In this document: one piece after another, positions 45,897-52,822 of the stretch
How positions within the stretch are numbered: the stretch's first letter is position 1
Layout of the letters: each line of letters begins with the position of its first letter
Program-made: the position numbers and the translations under genes
Assembly: GCF_003626755.1 (NCBI RefSeq)
Contig: NZ_RBCJ01000004.1
Span: 248,001-312,000, forward strand
From: Ulvibacterium marinum
GTDB lineage: Bacteria > Bacteroidota > Bacteroidia > Flavobacteriales > Flavobacteriaceae
DNA length: 64,000 bases
Direction: 5' to 3'
The notes under the pieces: model-generated
Told to the model about the DNA's origin: nothing
Databases searched by the model: none
Seen by the model: the letters and a program-made list of their open reading frames with translations, nothing else

Positions 45897-46850
45897 CTAA
45901 TCCATTTTTCCATAATTATCCATTCTGTACGTATCATCTTGGCCAGTAACCATTTGCACATAACTTCGATACCTGCTCCAAGATACCTCATCCTTTTCCA
46001 AGGCCTCCTTAACCGCACATTTTGGTTCGCCCAAATGCAGGCAATTATTAAATTTACAATTGTTCTTGATCCTAAAAAATTCCGGAAAGTAGTCCCCTAT
46101 TTCGTCCTTATCCATGTCCACCATACCAAAACCCTTTATTCCTGGTGTATCAATAATGCGTGCATCGAAACTCAGATCAAACATCTCGGCGAATGTAGTA
46201 GTGTGTTGTCCTTGAAGGTGTTGTTCGGATATTTCGGCAGTCTTAATGCTCAAAGAAGGTTCCAATTTATTGATCAAGGTAGATTTGCCCACTCCTGAAT
46301 GACCCGAGAACATGCTGGTTTTATCGAGCATCAATTCCCTGACCTGATCGACATTTCTTCCGGTTTTTGCAGATATGCCGATACAGGTATATCCCACATT
46401 TTGGTAGAGGTCGATCAAATATCTTACCTCGGCCGACTCTTCCCTGCCATAACTGTCCATCTTATTGAACAACAAAACGGTTGGAATGTCATAAGCTTCG
46501 GCAGTCGCCAAAAAACGGTCTATGAAAATGGTGTGGGTTACAGGGTTGTTCAAAGTAATTATCAAAAAGACGTGATCTAAGTTGGCGGCAATGATATGGG
46601 TCTGTTTGGAGAGGTTTACGGATTTTCGAATAATATAATTTTTCCGGTCTTCGATTTCAGAAATAATTCCGATGGTTTCGTCCCCAATTAGTTCTATCTC
46701 GAATTTCACCTTGTCCCCGACCGCAACCGGATTTGTGCTTTTGATACCTTTAATGCGAAATTTTCCTTTAATCCTACATTCATAGAACGCTCCGCTATCC
46801 GTTTTGACGGTATACCAGCTCCCTGTAGATTTATACACAACTCCCGTCAT
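45897..46850 (-). CDS. rsgA: Small ribosomal subunit biogenesis GTPase RsgA
   Basis: 317 residues with an N-terminal OB fold and a circularly permuted GTPase: G4 FNKMD comes first, then G1 GHSGVGKST and G3 DTPGIKGFG. The C-terminal zinc motif with Cys and His (CKFNNCLHLGEPKC) is intact. It assists late 30S maturation. The start is 46850. A TATTTTTG -7 box lies 33 bases upstream and overlaps the divergent promoter region of the next gene. Confidence 0.95.
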   Translation of the reverse strand: MTGVVYKSTGSWYTVKTDSGAFYECRIKGKFRIKGIKSTNPVAVGDKVKFEIELIGDETIGIISEIEDRKNYIIRKSVNLSKQTHIIAANLDHVFLIITLNNPVTHTIFIDRFLATAEAYDIPTVLLFNKMDSYGREESAEVRYLIDLYQNVGYTCIGISAKTGRNVDQVRELMLDKTSMFSGHSGVGKSTLINKLEPSLSIKTAEISEQHLQGQHTTTFAEMFDLSFDARIIDTPGIKGFGMVDMDKDEIGDYFPEFFRIKNNCKFNNCLHLGEPKCAVKEALEKDEVSWSRYRSYVQMVTGQDDTYRMDNYGKMD

Positions 46851-48579: not shown

Positions 48580-49440
48580 TTATTGTTTGTTAAGTGGTAT
48601 TCCTTTTAGTATTTCCTTTATTTTATTCGTATTGTCCATTTCAGTATAAATGCCCTTGTAATCATTCTCCAAAAGGAGCTCTTTGAACGCTTCCAAGTTT
48701 TGGATATAATCCTCCAATATTTCAACTACATTGTCCTTGTTCTGTTCAAAAATAGGCGTCCACATGGCCGGGGAACTTTTGGCCAGACGCACCGTACTTT
48801 CAAATCCACTACCGGCCATATCAAAAATATCCTTTTCGTTCTTCTCCTTTTCAATTACCGTTTTACCTAACATGAATGAACTGATATGCGATAAATGTGA
48901 TACGTACGCAATATGGCGGTCATGTGCCAGCGGATTCATATATCGTATTCGCATACCCATTTCCTGAAATAGTCCCAGAGCCCGTTCCTGCAATTTAAAA
49001 GCAGTTTTTTCCACTTCACAGATAATATTGGTCTTACCGTTGTATAAGCCTTCCATAGCTGCTGATGGGCCGGAAAACTCCGTTCCGGCAATGGGGTGAC
49101 AGGCCAAAAAGTTCCTACGTTTGGGATGGTTCTCCAAAGTTTTGCAAATCAAACTTTTGGTAGATCCACCATCAAAGACTACACAATCATCGTTAATGGC
49201 ATCCAAAATTTCCGGTAATTTCTCTGCCAGGGCATCTACTGGAATACTCGCAATGACCATATCCGCTTGCGTTAAATCCTGATAACCGGATTTTACATCA
49301 ATTATACCCAACGATAGAGCTTCGTCTAGATGGGACGTATTGGTATCCACTCCGAAAATTTTCGAGTCGGGACGTAATCTTTTTATATCCTTTGCAAAGG
49401 AGCCTCCAATTAAACCTATACCTATAACGAATATGTTCAT
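48580..49440 (-). CDS. tyrA: Prephenate dehydrogenase
   Basis: 286 residues; oxidatively decarboxylates prephenate to 4-hydroxyphenylpyruvate for tyrosine. The NAD-binding fold begins MNIFVIGIGLIGGSFAKDI. The catalytic His region HPIAGTEFSGP is typical. There is no chorismate mutase domain; that activity is in the next gene. It lies between the aminotransferase gene (55 bases) and the DAHP synthase fusion (one base). Confidence 0.92.
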   Translation of the reverse strand: MNIFVIGIGLIGGSFAKDIKRLRPDSKIFGVDTNTSHLDEALSLGIIDVKSGYQDLTQADMVIASIPVDALAEKLPEILDAINDDCVVFDGGSTKSLICKTLENHPKRRNFLACHPIAGTEFSGPSAAMEGLYNGKTNIICEVEKTAFKLQERALGLFQEMGMRIRYMNPLAHDRHIAYVSHLSHISSFMLGKTVIEKEKNEKDIFDMAGSGFESTVRLAKSSPAMWTPIFEQNKDNVVEILEDYIQNLEAFKELLLENDYKGIYTEMDNTNKIKEILKGIPLNKQ

Positions 49441-50641: not shown

Positions 50642-51465
50642 AATCGGGCATTTTTATATTCCCCTATGACCTTAAAATTTTCGGACATAATCTCCAAAAG
50701 CGATTTGGCCTTGGCAAAATTATCATATTGTTCAAAAGTAACGTCCACGAAAAAAGCATATTTCCAAGGGGTCTCTATTATGGGCAACGATTGAATTTTG
50801 GTCAAATTAAGGTTACAATCGCTCATCACATTGAGGACCGTTGCCAAACTGCCTCTTTTATGGTCGGTTTCAAATCTTAGGGATGCCTTATTTATTTCGT
50901 CCTTGGGGAGTTCCTTGTTCTTGGTTTTTACAATGATAAATCTTGTAGCATTGTTCTTTATGGTCTGTATCTCCTTGGCAATAATCTTTAAGCCATATAG
51001 TTCGGCGGCTACTTGAGGCGCAATGGCAGCGATACCCTTTAAATTATGCTCCTGAATTTGCTTGGCCGTTTCGGCAGTATCCACATCTTCCACCATTTTA
51101 ATATGGGGTTGCGTCTTCAAAAACTCCCTACATTGTAACAGGGCCATAGGATGGGTACGAACTTCTTTTATATCTTTAATTTGCTGACCTTCCAAAGCCA
51201 TCAAATGGTGGTGAATGTTCAAATAATGTTCCCCTATAATATGCAAGCCGTTGTCATATACCAGCGCATAATTGGGAATAATAGATCCTGCTATGGAATT
51301 CTCAATGGCCATAACACCTTTGTCTGCAGAACCATCCAACAAGCGGTCTACCAATCCGTGAAAGGAAAGACACTCCACTAAATCCACACCACCCTGAAAG
51401 TATTCCCTTGCTACCTGATGGTGGTTGGATCCCTTTATTCCCTGTATGGCTATTTTCAAACTCAT
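50638..51465 (-). CDS. pheA: Prephenate dehydratase
   Basis: 275 residues; converts prephenate to phenylpyruvate. The N-terminal two-lobed dehydratase domain covers about 1-180 (AIENSIAGSI and NNATRFIIV present). The C-terminal ACT domain (about 190-270) has RGSLA in place of the GALV element and QSLP in place of the ESRP element that bind Phe in regulated enzymes. It is the first gene of the aromatic operon. The attenuator 70 bases upstream indicates control at transcription by charged tRNA. Confidence 0.94.
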   Translation of the reverse strand: MSLKIAIQGIKGSNHHQVAREYFQGGVDLVECLSFHGLVDRLLDGSADKGVMAIENSIAGSIIPNYALVYDNGLHIIGEHYLNIHHHLMALEGQQIKDIKEVRTHPMALLQCREFLKTQPHIKMVEDVDTAETAKQIQEHNLKGIAAIAPQVAAELYGLKIIAKEIQTIKNNATRFIIVKTKNKELPKDEINKASLRFETDHKRGSLATVLNVMSDCNLNLTKIQSLPIIETPWKYAFFVDVTFEQYDNFAKAKSLLEIMSENFKVIGEYKNARL

Positions 51466-51534
51466 TTTACACTATCTGACGATTCCCTTGGCCCATTCCT
51501 GGCATTCTATTTTCATGAAAAATGGGAAATAAAA

Positions 51535-51598
51535 AAGTCCCGTTTTTCACGGGACTTCATATTATATTTTTGTTTTCAATATACTACAACAGTCCCTT
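51535..51598 (-). promoter_or_regulatory. Transcription attenuator of the pheA operon (terminator and antiterminator)
   Basis: On the minus strand AAGTCCCG (51557-51550), loop TGAAAAA, CGGGACTT (51542-51535) runs into TTTT, an intrinsic terminator. AGGGACT at 51597-51591, inside the leader-peptide codons, can pair with AGTCCC of the terminator's 5' arm and so prevent its formation. If the ribosome stalls at the Phe/Tyr codons (51643-51608), the antiterminator forms and the operon is read. If it reaches the stop, the terminator forms. The sequence elements are seen directly; the mechanism is the established one for leader-peptide attenuation. Confidence 0.88.
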
Positions 51599-51655
51599 TC
51601 CTCCTTTAAAAAAGAAGTAAAAGTAAAAACCGTTCCAGAAATATTGTTTTGTCAT
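51584..51655 (-). CDS. Leader peptide of the pheA operon (pheL-like)
   Basis: A 23-codon frame, ATG at 51655 and TAG at 51586-51584. Residues 5-16 read YFWNGFYFYFFF: six Phe, three Tyr and one Trp in twelve positions. It lies 119 bases upstream of pheA and is followed by a terminator hairpin that overlaps an alternative pairing with the end of the leader. The product is not expected to have a function of its own. A near-consensus -7 box (TACATTAG) lies upstream near 51671-51678. Confidence 0.88.
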   Translation of the reverse strand: MTKQYFWNGFYFYFFFKGGKGLL

Positions 51656-51806
51656 TATGCTATAAAACTTCGGCTAATGTACTAATTAAATTTAAAAATC
51701 AGGTTTATGCCTCTTCTTTTTTTGATTTTCTAAGAATTAACGTCAATCCTTGTCCATTTATTTTTCAAAATCTAGTTTTAATGCGAATTATGCACGTTAT
51801 ACAAAC

Positions 51807-51833
51807 AACAAGGATAAGGCAGGAATCCTTGTT
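51807..51833 (+). terminator. Hairpin upstream of gldA (AACAAGGAT / ATCCTTGTT, then TTT)
   Basis: A perfect 9-bp stem with a nine-base loop followed by TTT in the plus direction, 96 bases before gldA. No plus-strand gene ends here, so it may be a premature terminator controlling gldA or the end of a small RNA. A -7 box TATTTTTG (51902-51909) downstream of it could serve gldA. The rest of 51656-51928 holds nothing I can name. Confidence 0.6.
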
Positions 51834-51928
51834 TTTAACCCTAAGTACGTGTTTTTTCAATAATCTTCATAGATATACGGAGGTCTTAATGCTATTTGCT
51901 ATATTTTTGAAAAAAATCAACGAAACCA

Positions 51929-52822
51929 GTGTCCATTGTCGTAAAAAACATTACCAAAACGTTCGGGAACCAAAAAGCCTTGAACGATGTCTCCTTCGAT
52001 GTGAAAAAAGGTGAAATCGTAGGGTTTTTGGGGCCAAACGGTGCGGGGAAATCTACTTTGATGAAGATTTTGACTACCTACCATGAAGCAGATGAAGGGG
52101 AAGCCATGGTAAATGATTTTGACGTTCGTACTGATAAGAAATCTGTCCAAAGGAGTATTGGGTACCTACCTGAACACAACCCCTTGTATTTGGAACTATA
52201 TGTAAAAGAGTATTTGGCCTTCAATGCCGATGCCCATAAGGTGGACAAGAATCGTATAAAGGAAATTATTGAACGGACGGGACTGCAACCGGAGGCTCAT
52301 AAAAAGATAGGTCAACTTTCCAAAGGATATCGACAACGGGTAGGTTTGGCAGCGGCACTATTGCACGACCCGGATGTACTCATTTTAGATGAGCCCACTA
52401 CGGGGCTGGATCCCAATCAACTGCTAGAAATCCGAAAACTTATAAAGGAAATTGGAAAAGAAAAGACCATATTGTTGTCCACCCATATCATGAAAGAAGT
52501 AGAGGCTGTTTGTGATAGAGTATTAATTCTGAACAAAGGGGTCCTAGTCGCCGACAAGAAGCTGAACGATCTACGAGACGAAGAGCAACAGGTCATCGAG
52601 GTAGAATTCGACTACCGTGTAGAAGAAGCTTTTTTACAAAAACTTCCGCATGTTTCCCTGGTTAAAAATACAGGAGGTTTTGTGTATGAAGTTACTTTTA
52701 GTACCTCCAAGGATATGCGTCCGGCCATTTTCGATTTCGCTCATGACAATCAGCTCAAAACATTACAGTTAAGCCGAAAGAACAGAAATTTGGAAAGCTT
52801 GTTTACCGAACTGACCGCATAA
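51929..52822 (+). CDS. gldA: Gliding motility ABC transporter ATPase GldA
   Basis: 297 residues with a GTG start at 51929. Walker A GPNGAGKST (35-43), signature LSKGYRQRVGLAAALLHDP, Walker B VLILDEPTTGLDP and the switch His (LLSTHIMKEVE) are complete. The overall sequence and the C-terminal about 80 residues fit GldA of the GldAFG transporter, required for gliding in F. johnsoniae. gldF and gldG are not in the window. gldB and gldC are at 27528-28864. Confidence 0.85.
   Translation: MSIVVKNITKTFGNQKALNDVSFDVKKGEIVGFLGPNGAGKSTLMKILTTYHEADEGEAMVNDFDVRTDKKSVQRSIGYLPEHNPLYLELYVKEYLAFNADAHKVDKNRIKEIIERTGLQPEAHKKIGQLSKGYRQRVGLAAALLHDPDVLILDEPTTGLDPNQLLEIRKLIKEIGKEKTILLSTHIMKEVEAVCDRVLILNKGVLVADKKLNDLRDEEQQVIEVEFDYRVEEAFLQKLPHVSLVKNTGGFVYEVTFSTSKDMRPAIFDFAHDNQLKTLQLSRKNRNLESLFTELTA

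Follow-up and report, generated by a model that had tools for sequence, protein, structure and literature searches.

Leader-peptide attenuation is a classical mode of control of amino-acid operons, represented by the trpL- and pheL-type attenuators of Escherichia coli. For the phylum considered here, Lopatovskaya et al. 2010 is said to treat Bacteroidetes. Among the elements described in this phylum, RF01692, the Bacteroid-trp motif, has been presented as a trp leader in Bacteroidetes in the relevant part of Weinberg et al. 2010 (PMC2864571), and the pertinent passages on Bacteroides thetaiotaomicron mention 5′ untranslated regions with short frames "reminiscent of leader peptides" (PMC7366714). 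The closest precedent comes from Flavobacterium psychrophilum, for which the relevant section of a 2021 study describes strong indications of leader-peptide attenuation upstream of amino-acid operons, together with structured 5′ elements before pheA and hisG that are conserved in the family and match no Rfam entry (PMC9723704). Here, we analysed a 64,000-nucleotide stretch of Ulvibacterium marinum DNA (the window) and its relatives, and we propose that the element preceding pheA is very probably a ribosome-mediated transcription attenuator of the leader-peptide type for the pheA operon.

Leader frame, operon and terminator in the window

A sequence-only reading of this DNA had described a 23-codon frame with ten aromatic residues among residues 5–16, and we recovered precisely this frame on the minus strand at 51655-51584 (MTKQYFWNGFYFYFFFKGGKGLL), with an ATG at 51655, 23 codons and a TAG stop, and found it conserved in relatives. 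Its sensing block, leader codons 5–16 (YFWNGFYFYFFF, 51608..51643, minus strand), contains 10 aromatics in 12 positions (6 Phe, 3 Tyr and 1 Trp); the frame is both short and rich in codons for the end products of the operon. When the 906 ATG frames of 12–45 codons on both strands of the window were compared, this was the only one with 10 aromatics in 12, the next best having 7; likewise, none of 2000 dinucleotide shuffles of the leader region had more than 7. The start codon is preceded by A at both −3 and −6, positions presented as initiation determinants for F. johnsoniae in the relevant part of an earlier paper (PMC6847099); A occupies −3 in 113 and −6 in 94 of 158 leaders. The leader frame, its aromatic content and its operon context are confirmed as real.

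The operon itself occupies the minus strand and comprises pheA (prephenate dehydratase, PF00800; 50638..51465, start at 51465), a class I/II aminotransferase gene (PF00155; 49496..50641), tyrA (prephenate dehydrogenase, NF006307 over cut-off; 48580..49440) and a gene for DAHP synthase fused to chorismate mutase (PF00793 and PF01817; 47496..48578). All 78 loci with sufficient sequence retain this gene order. On the same strand, rsgA (45897-46850 of the window) lies downstream of these genes, and it is likewise downstream in 49 of the 78 named loci having at least 3.8 kb of downstream sequence.

Upstream of the leader, we found a promoter −7-like box (TACATTAG, 51674..51681, minus strand) 26 nt before the ATG, with one mismatch to TAnnTTTG, the Bacteroidota −7 consensus given in the corresponding section of PMC9723704; its position would place the transcription start probably near 51667. 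Of 69 non-redundant loci, 44 have the pattern TANNTT[AT]G at 10–48 nt before the start codon of the leader, most commonly at a distance of 26 nt; shuffled sequences gave a mean of 4.8 such loci and a maximum of 10. With this promoter-like box conserved just before the leader ATG, transcription probably begins with the leader. A scan of 51300-52000 for sigma-70-type promoters revealed nothing above chance (2 sites versus 2.3 expected, both on the plus strand).

Between the leader frame and pheA lies an intrinsic terminator hairpin (GAAGTCCCGTGAAAAACGGGACTTT, 51558-51534, minus strand) of 10 bp counting the outer pair, whose T-run continues below 51534; without the outer pair, the core comprises AAGTCCCGTGAAAAACGGGACTT plus T-run at 51557-51535. 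The terminator claimed by the sequence-only reading was thereby verified. Two terminator-like sites were detected in 51300-52000 against 0.4 expected, the plus-strand site being the same stem without a T-run. Because the neighbouring ABC-transporter gene (51929+) is divergent, the hairpin does not terminate any upstream gene on its own strand. The leader region as a whole folds with a z-score of −5.55, and none of 200 shuffles was equally stable.

Folding of the window further suggested a competing structure. Region 2 (GGGACT, 51596-51591, minus strand), within leader codons 20–22, would form the 5′ strand of an antiterminator, and region 3 (AGTCCC, 51556-51551, minus strand), the 5′ arm of the terminator, could pair with either region 2 or region 4. 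The earlier proposal of an AGGGACT/AGTCCC antiterminator was correct in that GGGACT can pair with AGTCCC, but it understated the extent of the pairing: an A/U-rich helix carries it beyond six pairs, to −14.4 kcal/mol. In silico, this competing helix starts just past the aromatic codons. The predicted leader hairpin pairs the aromatic codons, part of the sensing block forming its region 1, with the antiterminator strand, and region 2:region 1 pairing was predicted in 58 of 69 loci when the ribosome was absent. With a ribosome placed at codons 14 and 16, the antiterminator stage reached −14.4 kcal/mol, and for stalls at codons 5 and 10 the best fold also included the antiterminator. Once the 3′ arm of the terminator was added, the terminator became the most stable fold in all five ribosome placements (for example, −17.5 versus −14.4 kcal/mol). 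As the final fold favours the terminator, the antiterminator would have to act through the order of synthesis rather than through final stability.

Distribution of the element and of matching leaders

To delineate conservation, we searched for PheA in 60 genomes spanning the own genome, genus, family and order, obtained a match in 44 and took 30 loci. A leader (at least 5 aromatics in 12) plus terminator was present near pheA in 28 of the 30, drawn from the own genome, family and order, and in 29 once locus L013, in which a 110-bp tandem repeat displaces the leader–terminator pair by some 520 nt, was read further upstream. This repeat, with 3.8 copies at 978-1394 of L013 between attenuator and pheA, features a G+C-rich inverted repeat. 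At L023, pheA lies close behind a different reading frame, and its upstream region showed no leader. The search for aromatic frames upstream of pheA in other Flavobacteriaceae, which the sequence-only reading had put forward as a check, had a clear outcome in a public-genome scan: among the best 80 of at least 589 loci, which represent the nearest relatives and are mostly titled Flavobacteriaceae or its genera, leader and terminator were found in 79 of the 79 with upstream sequence. L053 was the one locus lacking upstream sequence, and L040 and L061 are apparently the same records as L007 and L008; 34 loci among these best 80 of at least 589 carry the leader and are titled Flavobacterium.

At greater distances, PheA matched in 128 of 148 genomes of the phylum set and in 62 of 217 of the class set; a Pfam PF00800 search found the gene in 43 of 148 genomes, indicating that the missing class matches were not a failure of the query. 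PheA was matched in 23 further families of the class, not counting the own family and f5. Of these, 12 showed a clear leader and terminator (f17, f18, f19, f22, f23, f48, f52, f59, f75, f78, f84 and f94), three a weak or incomplete leader or terminator (f49, f61 and f74) and seven no leader (f58, f64, f67, f68, f92, f100 and f104), in a tally that reflects our own reading of the sampled genomes, with f66 represented by a fragment only and G230 and G307 left out. In two genomes of f22, the leader lies 3.6–3.7 kb upstream (L125 and L126), with pheA behind an aroA-like gene as judged by eye. Of 194 regions upstream of pheA, 158 were positive for both leader and terminator under a loose detector. 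Among the 36 negatives are L145-L159 (15 regions, 14 from other classes plus L158 from the same order), eight of f58, L053, L125 and L126. An aromatic frame with no terminator passing the filter was seen in L143, L225 and L227, another search locating a terminator in L143; L226 has a terminator without an aromatic frame; and L023, L161, L236, L238, L240 and L241 have no leader upstream of pheA. The element was absent from all eight f58 loci, two of which were read to about 4 kb upstream, and from L161, read to 3.5 kb. Sixteen more distant regions (15 from other classes, one from the same order) comprised 13 without an aromatic frame and three with a weak one. The leader of L160, with a spacing of 85 nt and the only terminator among the distant regions, was taken as a chance match.

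When 45 genomes were searched with a covariance model of the pheA element at an E-value cut-off of 0.05, the model hit a single place in the genome of the window (E 1.1e-18). It matched in 35 genomes, the best match lying just upstream of pheA in 30 and the other five being weak (E at least 8.5e-4); among 35 PheA-bearing genomes, five gave no match at pheA (G025, G040, G044, G047 and G053). The sequence-only reading had named homologues without a conserved aromatic frame or terminator as the observation that would speak against it, and the outcome was favourable, with frame, terminator and antiterminator conserved across the family and over a large part of the class.

Several loci depart from this pattern. 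G040 and G053 (same order, f5; loci L158 and L372) yielded PheA matches far weaker than those of their order mates (E 5e-40 and 9e-40); in the tree, the G040 PheA joins the other-class type, and no aromatic leader lies upstream of its gene. L130, L132 and L133, from other classes, combine a Bacteroidia-type PheA (branch support 100% SH-aLRT) with an aromatic leader, and a topology placing their PheA sequences in a single clade with 19 from other classes was rejected on a quick tree (AU p 0.006); they represent either transfer of the operon with its leader or contamination. Two serial aromatic leaders precede pheA in L142, L239, L144 and L230 (families f19, f78 and f23), and in L142 and L239 each of the two is followed by its own terminator.

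Across relatives, the leaders range from 16 to 40 residues, with variable N- and C-termini, and chiefly the aromatic composition is kept. Phe and Tyr were both present in all 69 non-redundant leaders (means, 5.1 Phe and 3.5 Tyr), and 36 of these also had one or more Trp codons. Leaders of matching composition were found before other amino-acid operons when loci for hisG, trpE, ilvD and thrA were collected from the same family and order. Under a stricter criterion of 6 in 12, an FYW leader with terminator preceded pheA in 28 of 30 loci, and His-run leaders with terminators preceded hisG in 20 of 20 (L178-L197; own genome, MRNTATHHHFYTCSQAR), as did Trp-run leaders with terminators trpE in 19 of 19 (L273-L291; own genome, MKNLKVNTWWWNNLRQEA). 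Branched-chain (ILV) leaders preceded ilvD in 6 of 15 loci with full upstream sequence under the strict criterion (own genome, MDKNPNINNVLLVVCLGG); the strict and loose counts over all 17 loci were 6 and 10, and the base of 15 omits L203 and L206, which lack full upstream sequence. Threonine leaders were found before thrA in 0 of 14 loci, and none of nine criteria gave a leader in the 12 that remain when L336 and L340, whose start was not found, are excluded. With a terminator demanded, each off-target combination of leader type and operon was seen in 0 or 1 loci, except for the Cys/Met criterion at trpE (2 of 19). At L279, two Trp-run frames precede trpE, and a terminator was found for the first.

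These patterns bear on what would set the stall. A nascent peptide arrested in the exit tunnel, as with TnaC, could account for the retention of a compact, bulky aromatic block; yet the order of residues is unfixed, Phe and Tyr swap between loci, and the matching runs of His ahead of hisG and of Trp ahead of trpE suggest that codons are sensed, which renders peptide-dependent arrest very unlikely as the alternative to codon starvation.

Pairing, spacing and the proposed mechanism

Region 2 and the terminator arm were found to co-vary. The observed combinations of region 2 and arm were GGGACT with AGTCCC, GAGACT or GAGGCT with AGTCTC, AGGATT with AATCCT and AGGACT with AGTCCT, a three-way co-variation that arises because the 3′ arm of the terminator must match the same 5′ arm as region 2. 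In 99 unique loci, the duplex of region 2 with its own arm averaged −10.8 kcal/mol against −7.8 for permuted partners (sd 0.21; 0 of 10000 permutations), and in 70 loci of less than 75% identity the values were −12.0 and −8.66 (sd 0.26; 0 of 20000); the 70-locus set includes L160, which the 69-locus set used for spacing, folding and promoter analysis leaves out. A clear TCCCG or TCTCG arm was present in 83 of 142 loci, and the matching region 2 motif accompanied it in 60 of 61 and 21 of 22, respectively, although the other motif was also nearby in 16 and 1 of those loci; L117, by exception, combines a TCTC arm with a GGGA region 2. A tree-aware test of these 83 of 142 loci, in which the 59 with other arm sequences were set aside, counted six changes each of arm and region 2 and was underpowered (sign test, p 1), with only two independent pairs on well-supported branches. 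Among the 29 unique loci whose titles name Flavobacterium, 22 have a weak core pairing of −5.9 to −7.8 kcal/mol.

The same co-variation tells against the view that the frame encodes a small functional peptide, for instance a membrane peptide, and merely adjoins a terminator. Such a peptide would explain why the frame is kept across much of the class and why its Phe/Tyr runs are hydrophobic; however, it is composition that is kept while the length and both termini vary, the C-terminal codons track the terminator arm (GLL with AGTCCC, ETLYV with AGTCTC, EDC with AATCCT) rather than a peptide motif, and the his and trp operons have His and Trp leaders of their own. We therefore regard this explanation as extremely improbable.

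In a 68-row alignment, RNAalifold detected no conserved helix other than the terminator, one lineage group being misregistered there: 13 of the 68 rows place C opposite C at a core column, and region 2 of one lineage group is shifted by one column. Owing to this misalignment of region 2, we chose the alignment-free duplex tests over pair counts. Control of the terminator by a ligand-binding leader (T-box or riboswitch) or an RNA-binding protein, with a passive aromatic frame, would suit the strong structure of the leader, but it is scarcely probable given that no Rfam family, T-box included, matched the window or any of 20 related pheA loci at its gathering score, and that the terminator is the only conserved helix in this partly misregistered alignment.

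Spacing was evaluated in the 69 loci. From the last aromatic codon to region 2, the median distance was 10 nt (interquartile range 8–12, range 3–17), and from the end of region 2 to the stop codon it was 3 nt (interquartile range −2 to 8). When the last aromatic codon occupies the A site, the front edge of the ribosome falls at about the start of region 2, and a ribosome at the stop codon covers region 2 with its footprint. The spacing is thus fitting for a region 2 that would be freed by a stalled ribosome and covered by a finished one. With a ribosome on the last aromatic codon, the RNA preceding the 3′ arm of the terminator folded at a mean of −15.2 kcal/mol, compared with −7.5 for shuffled sequences, and the folding z-score was below −2 in 54 of 69 loci. 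With the ribosome at the stop codon, the mean was −0.7 kcal/mol, the remaining RNA being shorter, with almost nothing left to pair.

In the attenuation that we propose, RNA polymerase would initiate about 10–15 nt ahead of the leader start codon, and the leader would be translated by a ribosome. Under a shortage of charged tRNA-Phe or tRNA-Tyr, and possibly also of tRNA-Trp, the ribosome would stall in codons 5–16 with its front edge just before region 2, allowing the region 2:3 antiterminator to form before region 4 is made, and polymerase would continue into the genes for PheA, the aminotransferase, TyrA and DAHP synthase/chorismate mutase. When amino acids are ample, a ribosome at the stop codon would cover region 2, regions 3 and 4 would pair, and transcription would end near 51530; without translation, the leader hairpin (region 1:region 2) would likewise favour termination. 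We infer promoter use, translation, stalling, read-through and the amino-acid response of the pheA leader from its sequence. Because the operon serves the synthesis of Phe and Tyr, and its DAHP synthase supplies all three aromatic pathways, a mixed aromatic sensor is the simplest reading. Collectively, frame, terminator, competing antiterminator, spacing, co-variation and operon context support the interpretation as an attenuator with which the sequence-only reading had begun, on the strength of sequence and comparison.

A broader picture, to which we give roughly even chances, is that of a class-wide aromatic sensor of Bacteroidia, a mixed Phe/Tyr leader joined by Trp in about half of the lineages, that would act as an OR gate for any aromatic shortage, would belong to a set of phe/tyr, his, trp and partly ilv attenuators working without Shine-Dalgarno pairing, would be present in tandem in some lineages and would travel with its operon into other classes.

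Comparison with known systems

In a permissive 351-nt search, the top Rfam match was RF01859 (Phe_leader), which we take to be a proteobacterial family; the whole model aligned, at 28.5 bits (E 0.007) against a gathering score of 55, as the first of 21 mostly chance matches, and the window element is not assigned to it. The comparison with Rfam leader families that had been envisaged at the outset thus returned no family at cut-off on the pheA leaders tested. RF01692 gave no match in the window or in 20 pheA loci and is likewise not the family of this element; it matched 8 of 16 trpE loci tested, the trp leader of the window's own genome (L275) not among them. Rfam matches to hisG leaders numbered 0 of 8 loci tested. 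RF01692 resembles the pheA element as a leader-peptide attenuator in Bacteroidetes and differs from it in having Trp codons, before trpE.

The 5′ element before pheA of F. psychrophilum shares gene, position and family with the element of the window, and also the absence of an Rfam match; the section of that paper concerned with it contains neither a leader sequence nor an antiterminator and does not trace the element outside the family (PMC9723704). Among open-licence papers, we found no prior account of the anatomy, co-variation, spacing or class-wide spread of the pheA element. The remark in the sequence-only reading that such an element is rarely annotated in Bacteroidota must therefore be narrowed, since the RF01692 trp leader and, from the section just cited, the F. 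psychrophilum pheA element were already known; for the remainder it stands.

The present analysis takes a hint published for a single fish pathogen and develops it into a defined element whose parts are named and can be tested, and which occurs in many families of the class. Viewed alongside the His and Trp leaders, it points to ribosome-stalling attenuation as a main control of amino-acid operons in Bacteroidia, despite ribosomes that ignore Shine-Dalgarno sequences, and these leaders constitute natural reporters for any transcription–translation coupling in the phylum Bacteroidota.

Relative to the E. coli trpL/pheL type, the element shares a frame of regulatory codons, the alternative 1:2, 2:3 and 3:4 pairings and a terminator before the first gene. 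Unlike that type, it mixes Phe and Tyr codons, and in 36 of 69 leaders also Trp codons, within one leader, and unlike in the E. coli host, initiation in Bacteroidia proceeds without Shine-Dalgarno pairing, according to the relevant parts of two papers (PMC9976891, PMC6847099). The kind is known and the pheA element had been noticed previously; the element is ordinary in kind, real and well supported, and its interest lies chiefly in its spread and in its host phylum.
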